DNA of 64,000 bases from Victivallis sp. Marseille-Q1083 (GTDB lineage Bacteria > Verrucomicrobiota > Lentisphaeria > Victivallales > Victivallaceae): NCBI RefSeq assembly GCF_903645315.1, contig NZ_CAHJXL010000001.1, forward strand, positions 310,001 through 374,000, written 5' to 3'. The notes below the pieces were generated by a model. That model made no database searches. It saw only the letters and a program-made list of their open reading frames with translations, and was not told where the DNA came from. Below, in pieces: positions 43,908 to 57,736 of this stretch. Each line of letters begins with the position of its first letter. Positions within the stretch are counted from its first letter, which is position 1. The translations under genes were made by a program, and so were the position numbers.

Positions 43908-43936
43908 TTGACTTTTCGGTTGTTTTTTGCTATACT
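43908..43936 (+). promoter_or_regulatory. Promoter of the prepilin-like/LacI operon
   Basis: TTGACT at 43908-43913, 17-base spacer, TATACT at 43931-43936, TGC before the -10 and six G before the -35. Confidence 0.85.
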
Positions 43937-43950
43937 GTTCTACGTAGAAC
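43937..43950. promoter_or_regulatory. Perfect palindrome GTTCTACGTAGAAC over the start site, probable operator
   Basis: A 14-base perfect palindrome begins directly after the -10 and would cover the transcription start. The operon it controls ends with a LacI-type gene, the likely binding protein. Confidence 0.65.
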
Positions 43951-43985
43951 AAAATTTCCCAAAACAACCAAGGATTGTCACGATT

Positions 43986-44645
43986 ATGAACAAGAAATTC
44001 ACCCTCATCGAACTGTTGGTGGTGATCGCGATCATCGCCATCCTGGCCAGCATGCTGCTTCCGGCGTTGTCCAAGGCCAAAGCCGCCGCTCAGGCGATCA
44101 AGTGCACCAGCAACCTGAAACAGGTCGGCCTGGACTGTTTCCTCTATTCGAACGACAACAACGACGCCAGCCCGCCGGCGGAATGGGGCTGGAAGCACAT
44201 GTCGACCACGCTGGGCATGTACCTCGGCATCAAGGATGCTCAAAACGGACAAGGCTGGGGCAATTTTCTGAACACCGAATTTCAATGCCCGTCCTACAAT
44301 GCCGACGGCTACAGCGGCACCGACGGTTTCGCCTACGTTCCGAACGTTTACGTCGGCGGCGTATACAACGACGACTGGACGCCGAAATATCCGGGCGATT
44401 CCAACTGGACCGGCCGCAAACTGTCGGTCATCAAGAATCCGGCCGGCAAATATTACTGGGGCGACAACAAGGCGTTCGTCAAATACGTCTCCTACGACAC
44501 CGCCGATCCGAATTCGGAGTATTTCGCCTTCGACTACAAACATAACAAAAAGATGAACATCCTTTTCGTCGACGGTCACGTCGACAAAGGCGGCCGCGAA
44601 GTGAACTGGATCGACAATCAGGAATATTTCTATCCGCTGGATTGA
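43986..44645 (+). CDS. Prepilin-like protein with N-terminal methylation motif and H-X9-DG domain
   Basis: A 219-residue member of the prepilin-like family, the shortest here. MNKK precedes [12 protein letters not shown] (Lys at -1). The helix ends [14 protein letters not shown], with Ser where the others have Gly. The conserved Cys are in IKCTSNLKQ and FQCPSYN, and [13 protein letters not shown] supplies H-X9-DG. The rest is rich in Asn, Asp and Tyr, as expected of a secreted binding surface. It is first in an operon with a LacI regulator (10-base gap), the reverse of the usual regulator-first order, so prepilin and regulator are produced together. Confidence 0.85.
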
Positions 44646-44655
44646 ACCTGACGCC

Positions 44656-45702
44656 ATGAAACAGCGAGTCCGTCAAATCGATATTGCCCAGGCCGTCGGC
44701 GTTTCCCAGCGCGTCGTCTCCTCCGTGCTGGGAAACAATCCCGGCAGGACCTTCAAAGCCTCGCCGGCAATGCGGGAAAAAATCCTGCAGACCGCCAAGG
44801 AGATGGGGTATACCATCAACCAGAGCGCCAGCGAATTGCGCGGCGGCTCCAGCAAAATCGTCGGCGTGCTGATCAACAACTATTTCACCCAGGAGTCGCA
44901 GGATTTGCTGTTCCGCCTCGGCGAAGCCGCCCACGGCCGCGGTTACCATCTGCTGATCGGCCAGGTGATGGACACGTTGGATGATTTCACCAATTATTTC
45001 AACGAATTCGCCTCGCGGAGCGTCGAGGCGGTCATCTGCCTGCAGCACCAGCCGTTGATCGGCGGCAGCTACCCGTCGATCGAAAAGTGCATCCACCCGA
45101 ACCTGAAAGTGGTGTACCTGGGACAGCCGGCTTTTCAAACCGAAACGGCGCTCTCGGTTTCCGTCGACCACCGCACCGCCTACACCCAGGCGGTGGAATA
45201 CCTCCACCGCCACGGCGCCAGGCGGATCGGCTTCCTGTCGCCGAATAACCAGCACCCGCATATCCAGGACCGCCTGGCCGGCTATCTGGACGGTTTGCGG
45301 CGCTGCAACCTGGAACCGGAAGCGGCGCTGCAACTGGAATTCAGCCGGGGCAACGTGCCGTTGGACGAGGAGGAGTTGAGCCTGGTCATTCACGCGGCGC
45401 TGAAAGCCTGGATTCCCGGCGTGCAGCCGGATGCCATCCTGGCGACCAACGATATCCTCGCCAGTGAAATACTCCGCTTTGCGCTGCTGCACAACTACGC
45501 GGTGCCGAACGATTTCCAGGTGATCGGGTTCGGCAATCTGCTGCCGCTGGCATTGCGCATGCACCCGCAATTGAGCAGTTTCCAGGTTCAAAACGGCCGG
45601 ATGGCCGAAGCGCTGTTCAAGCTGGCGCTGGAAACGGAAACCGTCTGCCGCCGGCTCGTCATTCCGCCGGTCTTCGTGCCGCGCGGCTCCACCCGGAATT
45701 GA
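44656..45702 (+). CDS. LacI-family transcription regulator
   Basis: A 348-residue LacI regulator. The HTH is VRQIDIAQAVGVSQRVVSSVL with the second helix region REKILQTAKEMGYTINQSAS; the expected VS-x-xTVSRaL is changed to VSQRVVSSVL. The effector domain shows KIVGVLINNYFTQESQDLLF, GARRIGFLSPNN and DAILATNDILASEILRFALLH, then PNDFQVIGFGNL, where the usual GFDd reads GFGN. It is co-transcribed with the prepilin-like gene, whose promoter carries the GTTCTACGTAGAAC palindrome, so negative autoregulation is likely. The 284-base stretch after it holds no gene I can support until a promoter near 45919. Confidence 0.9.
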   Translation: MKQRVRQIDIAQAVGVSQRVVSSVLGNNPGRTFKASPAMREKILQTAKEMGYTINQSASELRGGSSKIVGVLINNYFTQESQDLLFRLGEAAHGRGYHLLIGQVMDTLDDFTNYFNEFASRSVEAVICLQHQPLIGGSYPSIEKCIHPNLKVVYLGQPAFQTETALSVSVDHRTAYTQAVEYLHRHGARRIGFLSPNNQHPHIQDRLAGYLDGLRRCNLEPEAALQLEFSRGNVPLDEEELSLVIHAALKAWIPGVQPDAILATNDILASEILRFALLHNYAVPNDFQVIGFGNLLPLALRMHPQLSSFQVQNGRMAEALFKLALETETVCRRLVIPPVFVPRGSTRN

Positions 45703-45918: not shown

Positions 45919-45946
45919 TTGCAAAGCGCCACCGGAAATATATTAT
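45919..45946 (+). promoter_or_regulatory. Promoter of the six-gene UbiA to AMP-ligase operon
   Basis: TTGCAA at 45919-45924, 16-base spacer, TATTAT at 45941-45946, 41 bases before the ubiA-type ATG. It is the only promoter candidate seen for the operon. Confidence 0.5.
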
Positions 45947-45986: not shown

Positions 45987-46937
45987 ATGACCTTCAATCA
46001 AACCGAACCGGCCCGTTCTTTCCTGGTTCGTTACTGGATTTACCAGCGGGAACGCTTTCCGTTGTTTCAAACCGGCCTGCTGATCGCGGCCTTCACCTTT
46101 TCGGCCGCCTCCTATTCCCGTATCTGCCGCGGCGCCGACGGTTTCATTCCGTGGCGTTTTTTTCTGGGCGGGACTTTTACGGCAATCGCGCTTTTTTTAT
46201 TGTTCCGGCTTTTCGACGAATTCAAAGACGCCGAGGAGGACGCCAAATACCGCCCTTACCGGGCCGTGCCGCGCGGCCTGGTTTCCCTGCGGGAAATCGG
46301 TTGGGGAATCGTCATCGCCGTCCTGGCAATGCTGGCCGTCAACCTGCTGCTGATGCCGGTCATGCTGCTGGCCTTGCTGCCGGCGCTCGGCTACCAACTG
46401 CTGATGTGGCGCGAATTTTTCATTCCGAAACTGCTGCGCCGCCATCCGGTCGCCTACCTGGTCACCCATATGGCGGTCATGCCGATGATCGACTTCTACA
46501 CGACCGGTTTGGACTGGCTGAATGCCGCCGGCATCCTGCCGCCCGGGTTGCCGTTGTTTCTGCTCGTCACCTTCCTCAACGGCTGCGTCATCGAAATCGG
46601 CCGGAAAATCCGGGCGCCGCAAGACGAGGAGCACGGCGTCGAAACTTATTCGGTGCTGTGGGGGCCGCGGCGCGCCGCGCTGGTCTGGCTGGCAATCCTG
46701 ACCGTGACCGGAGCACTCGGCCTCGCCTGCTGCCGTTTTGCCGGTTACGCGCTGCCGGCTTTGCCGTTCCTGCTGTTTTTCTGGTCGGTCGGGGCCGGCT
46801 TCGCGATTCGTTTCATCCATTCCGGCCGGGGAGCCAAATGGCTTGAAACCGCCTCCGGATTGTGGACGATTGCCATGTATTTAACAATCGGCGGCGTGCC
46901 GATGCTGATGGAATGGAGCAGCAGCTTATGGAATTGA
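45987..46937 (+). CDS. UbiA-family prenyltransferase (membrane)
   Basis: A 316-residue integral membrane protein, about eight hydrophobic segments. The first acidic motif is at ~72-100: RLFDEFKDAEEDAKYRPYRAVPRGLVS, in the position of the N-D-x-x-D-x-x-x-D site that binds prenyl diphosphate through Mg. The second is EIGRKIRAPQDEEHGVETYSVLWG, matching the family's second Asp-rich loop and 'T-s-v-lG' end. The family joins polyprenyl or phytyl groups to acceptors such as quinone rings, heme, chlorophyll or glycerol-phosphate backbones. It is the first gene of a six-gene overlapping operon with lipid-type enzymes. The next gene starts 10 bases before this one ends. Confidence 0.78.
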   Translation: MTFNQTEPARSFLVRYWIYQRERFPLFQTGLLIAAFTFSAASYSRICRGADGFIPWRFFLGGTFTAIALFLLFRLFDEFKDAEEDAKYRPYRAVPRGLVSLREIGWGIVIAVLAMLAVNLLLMPVMLLALLPALGYQLLMWREFFIPKLLRRHPVAYLVTHMAVMPMIDFYTTGLDWLNAAGILPPGLPLFLLVTFLNGCVIEIGRKIRAPQDEEHGVETYSVLWGPRRAALVWLAILTVTGALGLACCRFAGYALPALPFLLFFWSVGAGFAIRFIHSGRGAKWLETASGLWTIAMYLTIGGVPMLMEWSSSLWN

Positions 46938-49552
46938 AACCATTTCTTTTTTTACCCGGCGCGAGCGCCACGGCCGCAACCGGACTTGGCGGCAAAGCCG
47001 AAAATCTGTGGCGACTGGCTCAATGCCGGGTCGACGTGCCTCGCTGGATTGCGCTGGACGCCGCCTGTCTGGCTCAAGTGACCGCCGGCGCCCCGGATGC
47101 CGCCGCCGCCATCCGGACCTTTGCCTTTCCTCCGGAATGGCCGACCACCCTGAACGAAGCACTCGATCAAGCCGGCATCACCGCCGCATTCCTGGCGGTG
47201 CGCTCCTCCGCGGCCGGAGAAGACGGCGACCAGCACTCCTTCGCCGGGCAATTGGATTCCTGCCTCTTCGTCCGCCGCGACCGCCTGACGGAAGCGATCC
47301 GGCAGGTCTGGCTTTCGGCTTTCGGCGAACGGGCGGCAGCCTATCGCCGGCAGAACCGTTTGACCGATCAGCCGATCCGAGTGGCGGTGATTATTCAGGA
47401 AATGGTCGAAGCCGACGTTTCCGGCGTCGCCTTCGACGTCGACCTGACCACCGGGTCCCGCCGGGGCACCACCGTCTCGGCCGTCTACGGCCTCGGCGAA
47501 GGGCTGGTGTCCGGGCTGCTGAACGCCGATACCTTCTACTGTCGCGACGGCGCGGTCAGCCGCCGGGAAATCGCCGTCAAAAATCAGGCGGTCGTCTTCG
47601 CGTCGGCGCAGACCGGCGGCACCAAACTGGCCGACGTCCCGGTTGATTTGCGTCAATTACCGGCCATCGACGACGAAACCGTTAAACGAATCGCCGCCAC
47701 GGTGCGGCAGCTTTCCGCCGCATTCGGCCGGCCGCAGGATGTCGAATGGGCCTTGAAGGACGGGAGTTTGAAAATCCTGCAGACCCGGCCGATCACAACG
47801 CTGGACCGCCTCGCCGACGGCGACGGCCTCGAACTGCTGTGGGACAATTCCAACATTGTCGAGAGTTATCCCGGGGTGACGACCCCGCTGACCTTTTCTT
47901 TCATCCGCAAAGTCTACCGGGAAGTTTACCGGCAGTTCTGTCTGATGATGGGAGTCGAACCGGCACTGCTCGAAGCCAATGCCGACGCCTTCGAAATGCT
48001 CGGCCTGATTCGCGGCCGGGTCTACTATAATTTGTACAACTGGTACAAGGTGCTGATGATGCTGCCGGGCTACAGCATCAACGCCGGCTTCATGGAGCAG
48101 ATGATGGGAGTCAAGGAACCACTGTCGCGCCGGCCGGTAATCGTCGAAAGCAAGCGCTGGAAATATCGGCGGCTCGCCGCCCTCGTCACCGGCAACCTCA
48201 TCAATTTTCTCCGGCTGGACGCCAAAGTCAAACATTTTCAGCGCAATTTCGACGCGGCGGTCGCACCATTTGAAAACAATTCGCCGGCCGGGCGTTCGCC
48301 GCACGAATTGGCCGCTATTTTCAACGATCTGGAAAAACGGCTGCTCGACAGTTGGCAGCCGCCGCTGATCAACGACTTTTTTGCGATGATTTTTTACGGC
48401 ATCCTGAAAAAACTGCTGGTCAAATGGGACATCGACCGGCGCGGCACGCTTCAGAACGACTTGCTCTCCGGCGCCGGCGATATCATTTCGACCGAGCCGG
48501 TACGCCGTTTGCAGCATCTGACCGAACTGCTGGCCGCGACTCCGGAGCTCCGCAACTGCCTGCTGGCCGCGCCCCCGGCCGAATTCCTCCGCCGGCTGCC
48601 GGACTTTCCGGCGCCGCACACCGAATTTGAAGCGTATGTGAAAAAATTCGGCAAACGCTGCATCGGGGAATTGAAATTGGAAACCGTCACCTATCAGGAT
48701 GATCCCACTCAGCTGGTGGAGCTGCTGCGTTCCTACGTCAAATGCGGCAAAACCGGCCACCGTTCCGCCGGCGACCGGGAACGGCAGTTGTGCCGAGCGG
48801 CCGAAACGCTGGCCGCCGAACGGCTGCGCCGCCATCCGCTGCGCCGGCTGCTGTTCGGCTATGTGCTGAAAAATACCCGAAAGCTGGTCAGGAACCGGGA
48901 AAATCTCCGCTTCGAGCGAACCCGGCTGTTCGCCGTCGTCCGTGATATTTTCCTGGCGTTCGGCAGTCATTTTCAACGAGAAGGCATCCTCGCCGACCGG
49001 CGCGATATCTTCTACCTGACCAAGGAGGAGATTTTCGACTTTCTCCACGGCACGGCGACTTCGACCGATCTACCGGCGCTGGTGGCGCTGCGGAAACGGG
49101 AATTCGATCGATACCGGCAAAGCGCACCGGATGAGCGGTTCACCACCTCCGGTATCGTTTATCACGGCAACACCTTTCGCCAAACCAGGACAACGCCGAC
49201 AACGCAGCGCGCCCAAGCCGGGACGCTGGCCGGCATCGGCTGCTGCGGCGGAGTCGTCCGCGCACCGGTGAAAATCGTCCGCAACCCGACGCTGGCGGTC
49301 GACCTTGACGGCTTCATCCTGGCGGCGGAACGGACCGATCCCGGTTGGGCGCCGCTGTTTCCGGTCTGCCGGGGCGTCCTCGTCGAACGGGGCAGCATTC
49401 TGTCGCACGCCGCCATCGTCACCCGGGAGCTCGGCATTCCCTCCATCGTCGGCGTCCCCGATTTGCTCGCCTCGCTGCAGGACGGTGAAATGATCGAAAT
49501 GGACGGCGCCGCCGGAGTCATCCGCCGGCTCGGCAGCGAGGTACAGCCATGA
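46928..49552 (+). CDS. PEP synthase / rifampin phosphotransferase-like protein
   Basis: An 874-residue protein. Residues ~10-310 are a PPDK-type ATP-binding domain: GLGGKAENLWRLAQC, FLAVRSSAAGEDGDQHSFAGQLDS, IIQEMVEADVSGVAFDV, VYGLGEGLVSG and DVEWALKDGSLKILQTRPITTL. A ~450-residue helical middle domain follows. The end is a PEP-utilizing swivelling His domain: AAERTDPGWAPLFPVCRGVLVERGS, then ILSHAAIVTRELGIPSIVGV with the phospho-accepting His in SHAA. There is no C-terminal PEP/pyruvate barrel. This three-domain layout and length match rifampin phosphotransferase-type dikinases, which phosphorylate a small molecule with the ATP beta-phosphate. In this operon the acceptor is more likely a lipid or isoprenoid intermediate (inference). 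Confidence 0.72.
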   Translation: MELKPFLFLPGASATAATGLGGKAENLWRLAQCRVDVPRWIALDAACLAQVTAGAPDAAAAIRTFAFPPEWPTTLNEALDQAGITAAFLAVRSSAAGEDGDQHSFAGQLDSCLFVRRDRLTEAIRQVWLSAFGERAAAYRRQNRLTDQPIRVAVIIQEMVEADVSGVAFDVDLTTGSRRGTTVSAVYGLGEGLVSGLLNADTFYCRDGAVSRREIAVKNQAVVFASAQTGGTKLADVPVDLRQLPAIDDETVKRIAATVRQLSAAFGRPQDVEWALKDGSLKILQTRPITTLDRLADGDGLELLWDNSNIVESYPGVTTPLTFSFIRKVYREVYRQFCLMMGVEPALLEANADAFEMLGLIRGRVYYNLYNWYKVLMMLPGYSINAGFMEQMMGVKEPLSRRPVIVESKRWKYRRLAALVTGNLINFLRLDAKVKHFQRNFDAAVAPFENNSPAGRSPHELAAIFNDLEKRLLDSWQPPLINDFFAMIFYGILKKLLVKWDIDRRGTLQNDLLSGAGDIISTEPVRRLQHLTELLAATPELRNCLLAAPPAEFLRRLPDFPAPHTEFEAYVKKFGKRCIGELKLETVTYQDDPTQLVELLRSYVKCGKTGHRSAGDRERQLCRAAETLAAERLRRHPLRRLLFGYVLKNTRKLVRNRENLRFERTRLFAVVRDIFLAFGSHFQREGILADRRDIFYLTKEEIFDFLHGTATSTDLPALVALRKREFDRYRQSAPDERFTTSGIVYHGNTFRQTRTTPTTQRAQAGTLAGIGCCGGVVRAPVKIVRNPTLAVDLDGFILAAERTDPGWAPLFPVCRGVLVERGSILSHAAIVTRELGIPSIVGVPDLLASLQDGEMIEMDGAAGVIRRLGSEVQP

Positions 49553-50658
49553 GTCAGGAAATCCAGGAGCGTACCCGGTTCGACTTCATCCGTTATGCGA
49601 ACTGCTGGGAAGACCCCGAACTGCTGCTCGGCTGTTTCGAACTGCGCGACCGCTGTGCCCTGTCGATCGCCTCGGCCGGCGACAACTCCTTCTCTCTGCT
49701 GACGCTGGCGCCGCGCAAGGTGGTGGCCTTCGATCTCAACCCGGTCCAACTGGCCCTGGTGGAACTGAAAAAATGCGCAATCGCCCGCCTGGAATACCCG
49801 GAATTCCGGCAATTCCTCGGTTTCGACGCGTCGACGCAACGGCTCGAAGTCTACCGGCAACGGCTCCGGCAGCAGCTCTCCCCGGCGGCGCAGGCCTATT
49901 TCGACCGTCATGAAAACCTGATCGCAGACGGCATCATTCACCAGGGAAAATTCGAACATTATTTCCAATTGTTCCACCGCCGCATACTGCCGCTGATTCA
50001 CCGCCGGTCAACGGCACAGGCGCTTCTGGCCGCCAAACCGCTGGAGCAGCGCCGGGCATTTTATCGCGACTGCTGGAACAATCTGCGCTTCCGGCTGCTC
50101 TTCCGCCTTTTTTTCAACCGGTTTGTCATGGGCCGCTTCGGGCGCGATCCGGAATTTTTCAAATATGTCGACCAGACCTTCATCGCCGACCAGTTGAAGC
50201 AGCGGACCGCCTACGCCCTGACCGAATTGCCGACCGACGACAATCCCTATCTGCACTATATCCTCACCGGCAATTTCGGCCCGGCTCTGCCGCACTACGC
50301 CAGAGCGGAACATTTCCGGACCATCCGGCAGAACCTGGACGCGCTGGAGTTGTTCCACGGCACGCCCGGCGATGTCGCGGCCCATTACCGGGAAAAATTC
50401 CACGCCTTCAATCTGTCGGATATTTTCGAATACATGGATGCCGGCCTGACCAGGCAAGTGGCGGCCCAGCTCCTGCAGTGCGCCGCCCCCGGCGCCCGGC
50501 TCGCCTATTACAACATGATGGTGGAACGCCGCCTGGCGCTTGATTTCCCAACCCGGCTCGCGGAACGGCCGGAGCTGGCGGCGGCGTTGTTCCGCGGCAA
50601 CCGGGCATTCTTCTACCACCGCTTCCTCATCGACGAAGTGAAAGGATTTCCGGCATGA
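49549..50658 (+). CDS. DUF3419 / BtaA-like S-adenosylmethionine 3-amino-3-carboxypropyltransferase
   Basis: A 369-residue protein of the DUF3419 family. In BtaA this fold moves the 3-amino-3-carboxypropyl group of SAM to diacylglycerol, giving the head group of betaine lipids. Signatures: RYANCWEDPELLLGCFEL, SIASAGDNSFSLLTLAPRKVVAFDLNPVQLALVELK (SAM-binding Rossmann strand with D-x-N-P-x-Q), the middle FYRDCWNNLRFRLLFRLFFNR, PYLHYILTGNF, and FNLSDIFEYMD. The N-methylating partner BtaB is not in the operon, so the product may stay un-methylated or the acceptor may differ. Start and stop overlap both neighbours by ATGA. Confidence 0.83.
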   Translation: MSQEIQERTRFDFIRYANCWEDPELLLGCFELRDRCALSIASAGDNSFSLLTLAPRKVVAFDLNPVQLALVELKKCAIARLEYPEFRQFLGFDASTQRLEVYRQRLRQQLSPAAQAYFDRHENLIADGIIHQGKFEHYFQLFHRRILPLIHRRSTAQALLAAKPLEQRRAFYRDCWNNLRFRLLFRLFFNRFVMGRFGRDPEFFKYVDQTFIADQLKQRTAYALTELPTDDNPYLHYILTGNFGPALPHYARAEHFRTIRQNLDALELFHGTPGDVAAHYREKFHAFNLSDIFEYMDAGLTRQVAAQLLQCAAPGARLAYYNMMVERRLALDFPTRLAERPELAAALFRGNRAFFYHRFLIDEVKGFPA

Positions 50659-52043
50659 ATCTCCTGCGTGAACTGGCCGGCATCGGCCTTGTCGGCGTCC
50701 TCTTTCTGTCGCTTTTTCTGCTTGGCGAGCTGTTGCGAAAAATTTGGCACCTCGACGGGGAGCTGACCAGAAAATTCGTCCATTTCGGCGGCTGTGCGGT
50801 AGCGATGCTGTTTCCGCTGCTGCTGTCCAGCCAGTGGAGCGTGTTCCTGCTGGGCATCGTATTTTCACTGCTGATCTACCTCTCCGCCCGCCGGGGCAAG
50901 CTGCAGTCGATCCACGGCGTCGAACGCAAGACCCTCGGCGGCATTTACCACCCGATCGCCATTTATCTGTGTTTTCTCATCTGCTCGCTGCTGAACAAAA
51001 TGGTCTTTTACGAAATCGCCATCATGGTGCTGGCGCTGTCGGACAGCATGGCGGCCCTCGTCGGCAAGAGTTACGGTCAGCGCATTTACCGGGTGGAGCG
51101 TGACAGCCGGAAGAGCCTTGAGGGGTCAATCATTTTTTTCCTGCTGACGTTCCTGGTCGTTCATCTCTCTCTGCTGCTGCTGACCGGGATGGGCCGGCTC
51201 GAATCGGTGCTGACGGCATTGCTGATCGCGATTCTGGTGACGCTGTTCGAGGCTATTTCGCTCGGCGGGGCCGACAACTTGTTCGTCCCGCTGGGGACGG
51301 TGTTCCTGCTGCTGAAAAATGTTTCGCCGGCGATCGGTGAAATCGGCTTTCAGCTTCTCGCCCTGGCGCTGACCGCCCTGCTGCTCTGGCTCATCGTCCG
51401 GCCGTTTCGTAAAATCGGCTTTTCCGGCAACATCGCGCTGATCCTGGCGGCCTACACCGGCTGGGGACTGGTCGATTTTTACTGGATGCTGCCGATCCTT
51501 TACGGCGTGCTGCTGATCTGCCGAACCGGCTGGATCGTCGACACGCCGGAAGATCCGGAAGAGGTTTACCGGGTGCAGCCGGCCTTCTATCTGGTTGTGG
51601 TGCCGGTCGGCTGGGTCCTGGCGGCCAATCTCGCCGGCAAACTCTATACGCCGGCCATGCCGCCCTGGTTTTTCCCCCCTTATGCGGCAGCGCTGGTCGG
51701 TCAGTTGGCAATCCTGCGCCTGCGCAAACGTCTGGCCCACCGGCGGGATATTTCCGCCGGAAGCCTGTGGTACGACACCGTGTTGCTATGGCTGTTTCCG
51801 GCGGCGCTGTTTCCGGTGGTGTTTCAGGAGTTTTCCGTGCGAATCATTCTGCTGCAACTGGCGGCGCTGGCAACGGCACTGGCGGCGGTATTTTTCTACC
51901 GTTACGGCGTGGCCGGCAAAAGGCTGACGCCGGCGCTTTCGCTGCGGCTGCGGATGTCCCTGGTTCTGGTCAGTTCGATCGGACTGGGCGTGTTGAGTTT
52001 GTTTGCATTCTGTCCAGAAAGGTGGTGGCAAGGTGAGTTATGA
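50655..52043 (+). CDS. Phytol/dolichol-kinase-like (SEC59/VTE5) integral membrane protein with extra C-terminal membrane domain
   Basis: A 462-residue membrane protein. The first ~220 residues match the CTP-dependent polyprenol/phytol kinase family: LTRKFVHFGGCAVAM, KTLGGIYHPIAIYL, ALSDSMAALVGKSYGQRIY with RKSLEGSIIFFLLTFLV, and FEAISLGGADNLFVPLGTVF. In VTE5/SEC59 these bind CTP and the isoprenoid alcohol. The remaining ~240 residues add about six further membrane segments, including a helix pair before KRLAHRRDISAGSLWYD; I do not recognise this part. A kinase for an isoprenoid or diglyceride fits the UbiA and BtaA-like neighbours. Start overlaps the BtaA-like gene (ATGA); the next gene's GTG lies 11 bases before its end. 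Confidence 0.75.
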   Translation: MNLLRELAGIGLVGVLFLSLFLLGELLRKIWHLDGELTRKFVHFGGCAVAMLFPLLLSSQWSVFLLGIVFSLLIYLSARRGKLQSIHGVERKTLGGIYHPIAIYLCFLICSLLNKMVFYEIAIMVLALSDSMAALVGKSYGQRIYRVERDSRKSLEGSIIFFLLTFLVVHLSLLLLTGMGRLESVLTALLIAILVTLFEAISLGGADNLFVPLGTVFLLLKNVSPAIGEIGFQLLALALTALLLWLIVRPFRKIGFSGNIALILAAYTGWGLVDFYWMLPILYGVLLICRTGWIVDTPEDPEEVYRVQPAFYLVVVPVGWVLAANLAGKLYTPAMPPWFFPPYAAALVGQLAILRLRKRLAHRRDISAGSLWYDTVLLWLFPAALFPVVFQEFSVRIILLQLAALATALAAVFFYRYGVAGKRLTPALSLRLRMSLVLVSSIGLGVLSLFAFCPERWWQGEL

Positions 52044-53046
52044 AATACAGTCGTTTCCGGTCTCCGACGCCGATGCGGCCGAACAGTTCGTTTCCTTCCG
52101 GCGGCAGCTTTACGCCGACAGTCCCCACGGCCGGCCGGCGCCGGAAGTGATTCCCCCCACGGCCCGGTTGTTCATGGTCCGGCAAGCCGGGCAAATCGTC
52201 GCCCGGGCCGCCGCGCTGGTCAACGATCAATTGCGTTACCGCCGCCAAGTGCCGGGACTGCTCGGTTTTTTCGAAGCGCGCTTCGAACGGCAGGGCGCCG
52301 GCATGTTGTTTTCGGCCATCGGCGACCATTTCCGGCAAGCCGGTTTCACGACGCTGATCGGTCCGCTGAACGGCTCCACCTGGCAGGCTTACCGGGTGAC
52401 GCTGCCAAGTTCCCGGCCGCCGTTCTTTCTCGATCACGTCAATCCGCCTTATTATCAGGAATTGTTTGAATCCAACGGCTTCGCCGCCATCGGCTCCTAT
52501 CTTTCCAGCCGGGTGCGGTTGACCGGGACAAGTTTCTCCCGGCTGGAACGCTTCGAACCGTATTTCCGGCAGCGCGGTTTCCGCCTCCGCACCTTCGATG
52601 CCGGCAATGCGGTCGGGGAGTTGAAGAAGATTCACGCGCTCGCGCTGGAAAGTTTTCGTCACAATTTTCTCTATACGCCGATCTCCGAGGAAAATTTTCT
52701 GGCGCAATACCGCGCCATTCTGCCGTTTGTCAAGCCGGAGTTCGTGCTGCTGGCCGAAAAACCGGACGGCCGCCTGGCCGGTTTTCTGTTCGCCCTCGAC
52801 AACCGTTTCGCGCCGGAAAAGCGGGAACTGGTCATCAAAACGCTGGCCGCCGCCCCGGAGCCGGCTTGTCGGGGCATCGGCGCCTTTCTGGTCGAAACCG
52901 TCCAGCGGCAGGCCTTTCTGGCCGGCTATGAAGCGGTCTACCATGCGCTGATGCACAGCGACAACACGTCGGCCCGCATCGGCAAAGCCGCCGCAGAACT
53001 TTATCACGAATACCGCCTGTACGGCAAGGAGTTGACCGGATGCTGA
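52033..53046 (+). CDS. GNAT-like acyltransferase of uncharacterised type
   Basis: A 337-residue protein related to a widespread uncharacterised GNAT-fold group. The group's blocks are present: GQIVARAAALVND, GLLGFFEARFE, GFTTLIGPLNGSTWQAYRVTL, PPFFLDHVNPPYYQELFESNGF, and an acetyl-CoA-type ending CRGIGAFLVETVQRQAFLAGYEAVYHALMHSDNTSA ('G-x-G-x-x-L' and 'N-x-x-a'). Its acyl donor and acceptor are unknown. I chose the GTG at 52033, preceded by AGAAAGGTGG; no ATG is available near the expected start. It overlaps both neighbours in the six-gene operon, so an acyl or amino-acyl step in lipid assembly is plausible. Confidence 0.68.
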   Translation: MSYEIQSFPVSDADAAEQFVSFRRQLYADSPHGRPAPEVIPPTARLFMVRQAGQIVARAAALVNDQLRYRRQVPGLLGFFEARFERQGAGMLFSAIGDHFRQAGFTTLIGPLNGSTWQAYRVTLPSSRPPFFLDHVNPPYYQELFESNGFAAIGSYLSSRVRLTGTSFSRLERFEPYFRQRGFRLRTFDAGNAVGELKKIHALALESFRHNFLYTPISEENFLAQYRAILPFVKPEFVLLAEKPDGRLAGFLFALDNRFAPEKRELVIKTLAAAPEPACRGIGAFLVETVQRQAFLAGYEAVYHALMHSDNTSARIGKAAAELYHEYRLYGKELTGC

Positions 53047-54614
53047 CCAACATCGTCGAATTGCTGTTCGAACAGGAACAAAAACAGCCGGACCGTCCGG
53101 CCCTCCTGCACCGCGACCGGCGCATCACCTTCCGCGAACTGGCCGACAACGTTCGCCGCCGGGCCGGTTACCTGCGGAAACGGCAGCTCGGCGCCGGCGA
53201 CCGCATATTGATTTTCGTGCCGATGTCGATCGAGCTTTATGAAATTCTGCTGGCTGTCTTCCAAATCGGCGGCACGGCGGTGTTTCTCGATGCCTGGGCG
53301 GACCGGCGGCGAATGGAACAGGCGCTGGAAATCGCCGGCTGCCGGGGCTTTATCGGCATTCCGAAAGCCTTTTTCCTGCTGCTGCGCTCCAGCCGGCTTC
53401 GCCGGGTACCGCTCAAACTCTTCTCCTCTTTTCCCGGACCAAAGGCGGCCGATGCCGCCGCCGGAGCGGCAACGGCCGCCACCGAACCGGACGAAGCGGC
53501 GCTGATCACCTTCACCACCGGCAGCACCGGCCGGCCGAAAGCGGCGTTGCGCACCCACGCCTTTCTGCTGGAACAACACCGGGTGCTGCGGCGGGAACTG
53601 GCTCTGCCCGCCGCAGCAATCGATCTGGCCACGCTGCCGATCTTCGTCCTGAGCAACCTTGCCGCCGGTCTGACTACATTGATTCCCGATTTCGATCCGC
53701 GGCGGCCGGGTGAAATCGACGGCCGGCAAATCGCCGCCGAAGCCGCCCGGCATCAAGTGACCTCCACCGCCGGCTCCCCGGCTTTTTACGACCGGCTCGC
53801 CGCCGCGGCCGACGGCAGCGCGATTCCATCGCTGCGCCAGATTTTCCTCGGCGGCGCCGCGGTATTTCCCAATCTGGCCCAACGACTGATCCAGGCCTTC
53901 CCCGATGCCGCCATTCAAATCGTCTACGGTTCCACCGAAGCCGAACCGATCGCCGCCATCGCCGCCCGGGAAGTCGCGGCCGCCTCCGGCGAGCGCATCC
54001 TGCGTGACGGGCTGCCGGTCGGGCGGGTCTGCGACAGCATCGAACCGGCCGTCATCCCGATCACCGCCGCTCCGCTGCCGCCGTTCAGCGAAGCCGAATG
54101 GGAGCAATTCAAACTGCCGCCCGGCGAAACGGGTGAAATCTGCGTCGCCGGCAACCATGTCCTGAAACAATATCTCAACAGTCCGGAGGCGATGAAACAG
54201 AATAAAATCGCCGTCGGCCAGCGGCTGTTCCACCGCACCGGCGATGCCGGCCGACTGGATGAAAACGGCAATCTATTCCTGCTCGGCCGGGCCAAGACCA
54301 TTTTTACCCTGCAGGACGGCCGCCGCTGCTATCCGATGCCGATCGAGTATCTGCTGCAGCAGCTCCCCGGCGTCACCGCCGGCACCATCCTGCCGATCGG
54401 CGGCCGCGCCGTCTTGATCGTTGAGCCGGAAACGGACGACGAAGCCAGCCGGCAGGCCATCGCCGCACAAATCGGACAACTGGCGCTGCCCGGTGAAAAA
54501 CTTCATTTTCTCAAGCCGATTCCGCGCGATCCACGCCACCAGTCCAAGTTCGATTACGACCGGATCGCCGCCCTCTGTCTCCCGAATGCGGCCGCCGGGC
54601 CGGCTTCCCGATAG
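53040..54614 (+). CDS. AMP-dependent synthetase/ligase, OleC-like
   Basis: A 524-residue adenylate-forming enzyme that would activate a carboxylic acid with ATP. Motifs: P-loop LITFTTGSTGRPKAALRTH, the YGSTEAEPIA adenine site, hinge LFHRTGDAGRLDENGNLFLLGR, and the C-terminal Lys (K503) in PRDPRHQSKFDYDR. The P-D-x-RH-x-x-K ending and YG-TEA-P resemble OleC, which makes beta-lactones from beta-hydroxy acids, but no OleA, OleB or OleD is near. It may activate a fatty or hydroxy-fatty acid for the lipid made by the operon. Start overlaps the GNAT-like gene by 7 bases; it is the last gene and converges on a LacI-type gene. Confidence 0.82.
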   Translation: MLTNIVELLFEQEQKQPDRPALLHRDRRITFRELADNVRRRAGYLRKRQLGAGDRILIFVPMSIELYEILLAVFQIGGTAVFLDAWADRRRMEQALEIAGCRGFIGIPKAFFLLLRSSRLRRVPLKLFSSFPGPKAADAAAGAATAATEPDEAALITFTTGSTGRPKAALRTHAFLLEQHRVLRRELALPAAAIDLATLPIFVLSNLAAGLTTLIPDFDPRRPGEIDGRQIAAEAARHQVTSTAGSPAFYDRLAAAADGSAIPSLRQIFLGGAAVFPNLAQRLIQAFPDAAIQIVYGSTEAEPIAAIAAREVAAASGERILRDGLPVGRVCDSIEPAVIPITAAPLPPFSEAEWEQFKLPPGETGEICVAGNHVLKQYLNSPEAMKQNKIAVGQRLFHRTGDAGRLDENGNLFLLGRAKTIFTLQDGRRCYPMPIEYLLQQLPGVTAGTILPIGGRAVLIVEPETDDEASRQAIAAQIGQLALPGEKLHFLKPIPRDPRHQSKFDYDRIAALCLPNAAAGPASR

Positions 54615-54695: not shown

Positions 54696-55691
54696 TCAAG
54701 TGGTTTTGCGCACCACCAGCGAGACATCCAGCACTTTCGATTTGATCTTTTTGCGGTTGATCAACTGGAACAGCATCTCCGCGGCCATGATGCCGAGCTC
54801 CTCCTTCGGCTGCGCCATCGTCGTCAACGGGTAAACGAGTTGATTCGCCGCCATCTCCAGATCGTCGAAGCCGACCACCGCCAGGCTCTGCGGCACCTTG
54901 CGCCGGCAGGCCAGCGCCGCCTTGACCGCGCCCAGCGCCGCCGCATCCGACGCAGCAAAGAGCGCATTGATCTCCGGATGGGCCACCAGCAGCCGCTCGG
55001 TTTTCTCGGCAGCGTCGGCGAGATCGAATTCGCATTCGACACACCATTCGCCGCGAAACGGCAGATTCAAACTGCGCAACGCTTCCAGAAAACCGAAATA
55101 ACGCTGGTTGAGTTCGTAGGAAGAGCGGTTGTGCGTCAACATGCCGATACGGTGGTAGCCGCGTTCCTTGAGATGGGCAACCGCCAGATAGCTGGCATGA
55201 TAGTTGTCGACGACGATATAGCCGCTGCCGACCCCCGGCAACTGGCTGAGCACCTGCAGCACCGGGATGCCGGATTCGGCCAGCAGCTCGTAACATTGAC
55301 ACAACTCCGGCCGGGCGTAAAGAATGATGCCGTCGACCTGGCGCTGCAGGAAACGCTCGATGGTATTCTTTTCCACCTGAAAATCACCGTTGGAGTTGCC
55401 GAGGATGATCGAAAAATTCTCCTGGGTGGCAATTTTCTCGATGCCGGCGATCACCCGGTTGAAAAAGCTGATGTTCAAGTACGGCAGCAGCACGCCGATC
55501 AGGAAGCTCCGCCGCGTCACCAGCGAACGGGCCAGCGCGTTCGGCGTATAATTCAACTGCCGGGCCGTCTCTAGAATCTTCTGCCTGGTCTCCGGCGCCA
55601 GGCGGCCGGTGCCGTTCAGGCCGAAGGAAACCGCTTTCGGCGACAGGCCGAGCTGGCGGGCGATATCGGTGATCGTGGTGCGTTTGGTCAT
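54696..55691 (-). CDS. LacI-family transcription regulator
   Basis: A 331-residue LacI regulator with a textbook HTH and hinge: TTITDIARQLGLSPKAVSFGLN, then TRQKILETARQLNYTPNALARSLVTRRS. The effector domain has FLIGVLLPYLNISFFNRVIAG, VDGIILYARPEL, GYIVVDNYHASYLAVAHL, RGYHRIGMLTHN and PQSLAVVGFDDLEMAANQLVYPLTTMAQP. Identical palindromic arms flank the gene at 55718-55735 (promoter side) and 54660-54675 (end), so autoregulation by looping is possible. It lies downstream of an AraC-type gene on the same strand. A target among nearby glycosidase or symporter genes is likely but not shown. Confidence 0.93.
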   Translation of the reverse strand: MTKRTTITDIARQLGLSPKAVSFGLNGTGRLAPETRQKILETARQLNYTPNALARSLVTRRSFLIGVLLPYLNISFFNRVIAGIEKIATQENFSIILGNSNGDFQVEKNTIERFLQRQVDGIILYARPELCQCYELLAESGIPVLQVLSQLPGVGSGYIVVDNYHASYLAVAHLKERGYHRIGMLTHNRSSYELNQRYFGFLEALRSLNLPFRGEWCVECEFDLADAAEKTERLLVAHPEINALFAASDAAALGAVKAALACRRKVPQSLAVVGFDDLEMAANQLVYPLTTMAQPKEELGIMAAEMLFQLINRKKIKSKVLDVSLVVRKTT

Positions 55692-56951: not shown

Positions 56952-57037
56952 TATTACAGACGCAATTATGAACGAAAAGAAATGGCGAAATGTTCTCATT
57001 CCGTCGAATCGAAAAAACAAGCAGAAAGGGTGAAAAA

Positions 57038-57736
<699 letters not shown>

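Follow-up and report, generated by a model that had tools for sequence, protein, structure and literature searches.

What does a run of six overlapping genes in Victivallis sp. Marseille-Q1083 make, and do these genes belong together? The run occupies positions 45987 to 54614 of the window, by which we mean the whole 64,000-nucleotide stretch that was analyzed (contig NZ_CAHJXL010000001.1, positions 310,001 to 374,000 of the forward strand). An initial annotation, made from the sequence alone, read the operon as one undescribed pathway to a lipid or isoprenoid conjugate, which might carry an amino-acid head group and alter the envelope; we found this interpretation partly supported. We found that the operon is conserved as one unit and that several of its members are new subfamilies of known superfamilies. 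The same six genes recur across phyla, and strong matches to three of the families fall in the same 20 of 387 genomes. Therefore, the operon is more than a chance arrangement.

The six genes are conserved as one unit

Recomputing the reading frames and starts confirmed six plus-strand open reading frames, each overlapping the next, by 10, 4, 4, 11, and 7 bases. These overlaps fit starts at ATG 45987, ATG 46928, ATG 49549, ATG 50655, GTG 52033, and ATG 53040. For genes 2 and 5 other starts could be chosen, which would make the overlaps longer (gene 2, ATG 46913 or GTG 46862; gene 5, TTG 52003). We assigned families with Pfam and NCBIfam profiles. Pfam bore out the labels of the initial annotation for the UbiA protein, the dikinase, the DUF3419 protein, the GNAT, and the AMP ligase, but the kinase-like membrane protein (CTP_transf) fell below its cut-off.

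We compared 80 loci, the best 80 of at least 177 confirmed relatives among at least 588 matching stretches of named genomes, a sample biased to close relatives. The full six-gene set was present in 46 of the 80, always on a single strand. This count includes two contigs of one metagenome-assembled genome (MAG) with equal scores (L023 and L024), and AMP-ligase matches longer than 2,700 bases (Aas-like proteins and one fusion among them) were left out of the full-set and order counts. Many relatives carry a seventh family, an HMG-CoA-reductase-like gene (HMGR; HMG is 3-hydroxy-3-methylglutaryl). Gene order, which the initial annotation had made a touchstone of its claim, is conserved: two orders cover 43 of the 46 full loci, and these permute the blocks UbiA-dikinase and DUF3419-CTP_transf-GNAT-ligase. 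The order HMGR-UbiA-dikinase-DUF3419-CTP_transf-GNAT-ligase accounts for 22 loci, and the same order without HMGR for 9. The UbiA-dikinase block stands at the opposite end in 12 loci (6 without and 6 with HMGR), and three loci have other orders. Open reading frames outside the seven families were ignored in these counts; in a few loci, frames of this kind lie between the cluster genes. DUF3419 and CTP_transf were consecutive in 46/46 full loci, as were GNAT and ligase, and UbiA and dikinase were consecutive, in either order, in 45/46.

With taxa as labeled in the deposited records and MAG labels taken as given, the full loci span about eight phyla. They come from Bacteroidota, Lentisphaerota/Kiritimatiellota/Verrucomicrobiota, Planctomycetota, Desulfobacterota, Chitinispirillum, Endomicrobia, a Melainabacteria MAG, and Clostridia MAGs; the phylum names are those to which we take these taxa to belong. 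Named strains that carry no MAG label and have the full set include Dyadobacter, Sphingobacterium, Desulfobulbus rhabdoformis DSM 8777, and Lentisphaerae bacterium WC36 (complete chromosome). Many of the 34 incomplete loci stop at contig edges. Six of them have ligase and UbiA and no GNAT, and one of these also has no dikinase. The Leptolyngbya set is split, with DUF3419 at one locus (L070) and HMGR-UbiA-dikinase elsewhere (L101).

Among 41 related genomes, DUF3419 was found in six. The divergent form (about 210 Pfam bits) was found only in the source genome and in two others, G025 and G033, the latter of which also has an ordinary DUF3419. Both have the six genes together at one place; in G025 the order is DUF3419-CTP_transf-GNAT-ligase-UbiA-dikinase, with every neighbor overlapping. 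We then searched 387 genomes of the phylum with three families, DUF3419, UbiA, and CTP_transf, scoring at most four or five candidates per genome. Cluster-type DUF3419 (at least about 355 bits; next score, 127) was found in 20 genomes. With the cluster UbiA profile, exactly these 20 scored at least 285 bits, and weaker matches were found in G198 (181 bits) and to a second copy in G073 (189 bits). With the CTP_transf profile, they again scored at least 221 bits, and the one further genome matched was G097, with 57.7 bits. In several of the 20 genomes the genes lie on separate contigs. Because these could be contig breaks, true separation was seen only in Leptolyngbya. The loci and the co-occurrence thus bear out the claim of one conserved pathway that combines lipid and isoprenoid enzyme families with an aminocarboxypropyl-transferase family.

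The UbiA and DUF3419 proteins are distinct subfamilies

The first gene (45987 to 46937) encodes a UbiA-superfamily membrane protein of 316 amino acids (aa), which matches PF01040 at 51.4 bits (cut-off, 34.2) and belongs to the fold common to UbiA and DGGGP synthase structures. Its first Asp-rich motif, RLFDEFKDAEED, follows the pattern D77 E78 xx D81 xxx D85, which is invariant in 24 sequences. The Asn of NDxxDxxxD, which we take to be the usual motif, is replaced. The second Asp-rich motif is replaced by EIGRKIRAPQDE, of the form ExxRK......E, whereas DGGGP synthase and most sampled paralogs bear Asp there. In a FastTree tree, 29 cluster UbiA rows (27 distinct genes) were monophyletic, with support of 1.0, against 27 paralog rows (L152 among them) from nine host genomes. 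These paralogs presumably include quinone and heme types, to judge by their motifs. The initial annotation had held that grouping with quinone or heme enzymes would tell against its reading; the tree placed the cluster proteins in a clade of their own, and a quinone or heme identity was rejected on that ground. Most host genomes searched carry further UbiA matches. The Pfam search with PF01040 overlooked the cluster copy in one other genome. The source genome (G000; 4.82 Mb) has a DXR gene; the cluster UbiA is its sole PF01040 match, and no MenA- or COX10-type enzyme was found in it.

The third gene (49549 to 50658; 369 aa) encodes a member of the DUF3419/BtaA-like 3-amino-3-carboxypropyl transferase family, with the motifs RYANCWED, SAGDN, GKFExYF, and NLSDIFEY. 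It matches PF11899 at 213.3 bits (cut-off, 28.2). BtaA, the betaine-lipid enzyme, is a known member of this Pfam family; the two share a conserved GDN motif, which we take to mark the S-adenosylmethionine (SAM) site. However, the cluster proteins are a separate subfamily, which in full clusters always adjoins the CTP_transf-like gene and is accompanied by an amine-acylating family. On the cluster profile, a gap separates them (at least about 355 bits) from ordinary BtaA-like proteins (at most 127 bits), and the cluster protein shares about 22% identity with each of two further DUF3419 proteins from its order. At the two ordinary DUF3419 loci checked (L011 and L012), no other cluster gene lies alongside. 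A PDB sequence search with the DUF3419 protein gave one row, at chance level. Ordinary BtaA-like DUF3419 proteins (340 to 352 bits) occur in other members of the order (loci L002 to L005).

The dikinase, kinase-like protein, and ligase

The second gene (46928 to 49552; 874 aa from ATG 46928) encodes a dikinase like phosphoenolpyruvate (PEP) synthase and rifampin phosphotransferase, with a PPDK_N domain (PF01326, 196.9 bits), a helical middle, and a phosphohistidine domain (PEP-utilizers, PF00391, 71.2 bits). The nearest PDB sequences are 5hv2/5fbs, at about 250 bits, and the motif ErGSxLSH is kept in 80% or more of the 59 sequences aligned; L009, L010, L023, and low-scoring or short matches were left out of this conservation table. 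Rifampin phosphotransferase and PigC/RedH have the same domain order and phosphohistidine domain. However, the dikinase scores 326.6 bits on the rifampin model, with an equivalog cut-off of 999, and 291.1 and 305.6 bits on the PigC/RedH models, with cut-offs of 1300 and 1350.

The fourth gene (50655 to 52043; 462 aa) encodes a membrane protein resembling CTP_transf_1 and the phytol, dolichol, and diacylglycerol kinases, with a C-terminal membrane extension. It scores 22.0 bits against CTP_transf_1 (PF01148), under the cut-off of 24, and 4 of 23 family members match at E ≤0.1. Invariant positions in 23 sequences include E36, R39, K40, H43, D130, A133, G137, K153, G157, E199, G205, D207, N208, and P212; DN..P is, we assume, the signature of the SEC59/VTE5/DGK1 lipid kinases. 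The 65 aligned proteins include 27 of a short form and 37 of a long form, and the C-terminal extension is missing from most Bacteroidota forms. A PDB sequence search with the protein gave no match, and the C-terminal half of the long form matched nothing else in the loci except another copy of the same gene (L023).

The sixth gene (53040 to 54614; 524 aa) encodes an AMP-forming ligase of the PRK09274/OleC-like group (PF00501, 175.1 bits; NF006754, 334.9 bits, cut-off 478). It differs from the OleC beta-lactone synthetases in that its scores on the OleC models, 224.2 and 159.9 bits, are far below the equivalog cut-offs of 900 and 850. The top PDB matches are adenylation domains of nonribosomal peptide synthetases (NRPS), at 131 bits, and the score on an amino-acid adenylation model is 155.8 bits, under the cut-off of 317.4.

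A formyltransferase adjoins most clusters without a GNAT

The fifth gene (52033 to 53046; 337 aa from GTG 52033) encodes a tandem GNAT acyltransferase. It matches PF00583 (Acetyltransf_1) at 29.0 bits (cut-off, 20.7), as do 19 of 22 homologs at E ≤0.1. The structure model has a pLDDT of 93.8, and its top Foldseek matches are mostly tandem GNATs; that search returned only generic tandem GNATs and their relatives.

Six loci have DUF3419, ligase, and UbiA and no GNAT (L032, L034, L035, L040, L057, and L069). All but L069 have a formyltransferase next to the cluster, and Pfam confirmed Formyl_trans_N in all three that were run. In L040 and L057 it lies directly before the ligase, which is the usual position of the GNAT. 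Because the formyltransferase stands where the GNAT is missing, this step probably caps an amine, and we suggest that the two enzymes probably do the same kind of job, amine acylation. DUF3419 chemistry would supply such an amine.

An HMG-CoA-reductase-like gene in many relatives

The HMGR-like gene is present in 43 of the 80 loci, including 31 of the 46 full loci. A genome-wide profile search found no HMG-CoA reductase match in the source genome. The closest known enzyme is class I HMG-CoA reductase. The cluster HMGR profile matches solved HMG-CoA reductases at 293 to 407 bits, and the catalytic Glu, Lys, Asp, and His (E127, K258, D332, and H423) are kept in 21/21 of the relatives' sequences. 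Residue roles and human numbering are as we assume them from the human enzyme. However, the Lys expected to bind the HMG carboxylate (human K735) is present in 0 of 43 cluster HMGRs (40 distinct genes), and the position of human Ser684 holds Glu (40) or Asp (3). Second HMGR copies in two mevalonate-pathway genomes (L094 and L098) keep both Lys and Ser. In a tree with five other HMGRs, those of the cluster group together with support of 0.996; L035, L044, L088, and L091 (truncated or fused) were left out of this tree, and 3 of the 43 cluster rows (L095, L100, and L102) duplicate genes already included. Arg or Lys occurs one position before the Lys735 site in 14 of 21 cluster HMGRs, so a basic residue is close by and the missing-lysine argument depends on the alignment. 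These residues suggest that the substrate has probably changed.

We checked 23 chosen genomes for mevalonate partners and found HMGR matches in 18. Fifteen have HMGR and DXR, with no diphosphomevalonate decarboxylase or HMG-CoA synthase over the cut-off (mevalonate kinase was not searched); in some of these 15, the decarboxylase or synthase models gave matches that stayed under the cut-off. Three genomes (G044, G053, and G057) have a decarboxylase, no DXR, and two HMGRs each, neither of which is in the cluster in G053. G045 has two HMGRs alongside DXR. For the 15 genomes, where the partner genes were not detected, we rejected the idea that the reductase serves a normal mevalonate pathway. A role as a core gene of the cluster was also rejected, because the gene was not seen in 15 of the 46 full loci and genomes G000, G054, G059, G060, and G061 have none. 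The cluster reductases differ from HMG-CoA reductase in the two substrate-site positions, in clade, and mostly in having no detected mevalonate-pathway partners. No mention of cluster-linked reductases appears in the portions consulted of PMC13001223.

Two variants stand apart. A further HMGR-like type, which scores about 495 bits against the cluster profile, occurs in a Caldilineaceae and a Microscilla genome (L096, 6147 to 7724; L099, 6494 to 8062); it lies away from the cluster and also has neither the Lys nor the Ser of true HMG-CoA reductase. In L091 (4591 to 7359), an HMGR-like protein beside the cluster is fused to an APH-type phosphotransferase domain.

Other neighbors of the cluster

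HMGR aside, the most that any neighbor family reaches is 7 of 82 loci, the count for one family that looks by eye like ABC-type ATPases. BLAST grouping placed a CDP-alcohol phosphatidyltransferase family in five loci and a CdsA-type family in six, mostly in Sphingobacterium and Flavobacteriales. Both adjoin UbiA in L065, as identified by Pfam. L063 and L014 have Aas-like acyltransferase-AMP-ligase fusions close to the cluster. No BtaB-like N-methyltransferase was noticed by eye among the neighbor families found in at least four loci, and no genome-wide search for one was made. In a Clostridia MAG (L082, 12428 to 16726), the dikinase forms a fusion protein with an AMP ligase and a phosphopantetheine carrier domain.

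A possible pathway and its alternatives

We suggest, at about an even chance, that the operon builds a membrane-lipid or isoprenoid conjugate with an aminocarboxypropyl (homoserine-ether) unit. In this scheme, the UbiA and PPDK-like proteins, which are nearly always neighbors, would handle the hydrophobic part together, UbiA by intramembrane transfer from a phosphate- or diphosphate-activated donor and the dikinase by ATP-dependent phosphorylation. The DUF3419 protein would transfer SAM's 3-amino-3-carboxypropyl group to an alcohol of that lipid, and the GNAT, or the formyltransferase in some lineages, would acylate the new amine. The AMP ligase, adjoining the GNAT, may activate a carboxylate, either the acyl donor's or that of the aminocarboxypropyl group. 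The SEC59/VTE5-like protein could carry out CTP-dependent phosphorylation of a lipid alcohol, and the HMGR-like enzyme of many relatives, though not of the source genome, could convert a pathway thioester to an alcohol. In favor of this scheme are the conserved six-gene set with its fixed adjacencies, the shared 20 genomes, the UbiA fold, the formyltransferase beside five of the six GNAT-less clusters, the lipid genes near some clusters, and the link of the HMGR-like gene to the cluster in genomes with no detected mevalonate-pathway partners. Distances between pairs of sequences are also correlated among the six families (Spearman, 0.58 to 0.86; 42 sets).

Several points weigh against this scheme. 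Its product and every reaction are read from conservation, co-occurrence, subfamily membership, and residues, which are what was observed. Loss of the second Asp-rich motif makes the use of a prenyl diphosphate by the cluster UbiA less than assured. The putative kinase role of CTP_transf draws on a sub-threshold Pfam match and on motifs as we know them, and this gene alone was not seen in six otherwise rich loci (L022, L039, L047, L048, L058, and L076). The DUF3419 acceptor could be a nonlipid. The HMGR-like gene was not seen in 15 of the 46 full loci or in the source genome. The GNAT-less locus L069 shows no formyltransferase, and among the other 74 loci only L089 matches one, weakly, and it has a GNAT. 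In L034 the formyltransferase is divergent from the ligase and is followed by a gene that resembles a sugar amidotransferase by eye, so this formyltransferase may belong elsewhere. Finally, the distance correlations take no account of species phylogeny.

Known systems match in part. The archaeal ether-lipid route runs through DGGGP synthase and CDP-archaeol synthase. The best PDB match of the cluster UbiA profile is DGGGP synthase (E, 3.6e-8); the CTP_transf protein may parallel the CTP-dependent membrane enzyme of that route, and some clusters have CdsA and CDP-alcohol transferase. However, the cluster UbiA is without the second Asp-rich motif, and nothing in the archaeal route corresponds to the steps of the aminocarboxypropyl transferase, GNAT, ligase, and dikinase. 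The ebo cluster is likewise an operon conserved among bacteria that has a UbiA subfamily to itself (EboC/UbiA-297) and whose product is given as unknown in the parts consulted of PMC5133447 and PMC9235831. It has other gene families, and the EboC model (cut-off, 250) gives the UbiA protein studied here 15.3 bits, so membership was rejected; as far as those parts go, the ebo papers concern another UbiA. The neighborhoods described in the consulted parts of the lipocone paper (PMC12419801) also differ from this cluster. Among the matches listed, full-text searches of one open-access library (subscription-only papers were outside its scope) found no description of the six-gene set and no characterized pathway that would overturn the initial annotation.

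A bolder form of the conjugate, which we consider quite unlikely, is a membrane phospholipid without glycerol, with the aminocarboxypropyl unit of SAM as its backbone, which DUF3419 would link by an ether to a prenyl or other lipid alcohol. Here the GNAT or formyltransferase would cap the amine, and the AMP ligase and HMGR-like enzyme would turn the carboxylate into CH2OH. The SEC59-like kinase would phosphorylate that group, and CdsA and CDP-alcohol transferase, in some clusters, would add a head group. Lineages without the reductase, including the source genome, would leave the acid as it is or rely on a different reductase, which weakens this proposal. If true, it would mean a backbone that is neither glycerol nor sphingoid base and a repurposed HMG-CoA reductase.

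The operon may instead make a diffusible natural product, such as a siderophore-, signal-, or pigment-like prenylated amino-acid conjugate, and not a structural membrane lipid. We regard this as credible though less probable. The kinship of the AMP ligase with NRPS adenylation domains, its sub-cut-off score on the amino-acid adenylation model, the dikinase scores of 291 to 306 bits on prodigiosin/undecylprodigiosin ligase models (far under the cut-offs), and the patchy distribution within the phylum would fit. However, because no neighbor family but HMGR recurs beyond 7 of 82 loci, there is no conserved exporter or megasynthase, and CdsA, CDP-alcohol transferase, and phospholipid-acyltransferase fusions lie beside some clusters. 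Salvage of isoprenoid alcohols is distinctly unlikely. The SEC59-like protein would make a prenyl phosphate, the dikinase a prenyl diphosphate, and UbiA would use the latter, with the other genes as accessories. The phytol-salvage route does require two phosphorylations, and UbiA and dikinase do adjoin, but DUF3419, GNAT/formyltransferase, and ligase would be left unexplained, some UbiA-dikinase clusters show no CTP_transf, and the second UbiA motif is altered.

A betaine-lipid (DGTS-type) branch is very improbable, even though DUF3419 is the BtaA family. The cluster protein is a separate subfamily, and an amine-acylating enzyme is conserved instead. Because no N-methyltransferase recurs among the neighbors inspected by eye, and because the exchange of GNAT and formyltransferase suggests an amine capped by an acyl group, a betaine head group is unlikely. 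We find it just as hard to credit a quinone, heme, or electron-carrier side pathway centered on UbiA. The lone PF01040 match of the source genome would favor it, but the separate clade, the altered second motif, and the additional UbiA matches of most searched host genomes argue otherwise.

Features flanking the operon

A weak promoter-like consensus match lies on the plus strand at 45919 to 45946, about 40 bases before the first start codon; it agrees at 9/12 positions, which is no evidence of function. By eye, regulators that we take to be of the LacI type flank the operon at 44656 to 45702 and at 54696 to 55691, the latter convergent with it. Prepilin-like proteins are encoded nearby at 43908 to 44645 and 56990 to 57736.

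Implications

The six-gene unit extends over about eight phyla and is whole in cultured bacteria such as Dyadobacter and Sphingobacterium, and its product is undescribed in the open-access literature searched. The cluster defines new subfamilies of UbiA, DUF3419, and HMG-CoA reductase, and it may account for the presence of an HMGR-like gene in some bacteria whose isoprenoids come from the methylerythritol phosphate (MEP) pathway. Should the operon make a lipid, many environmental and gut bacteria may have in their membranes a class that lipidomics has not named.

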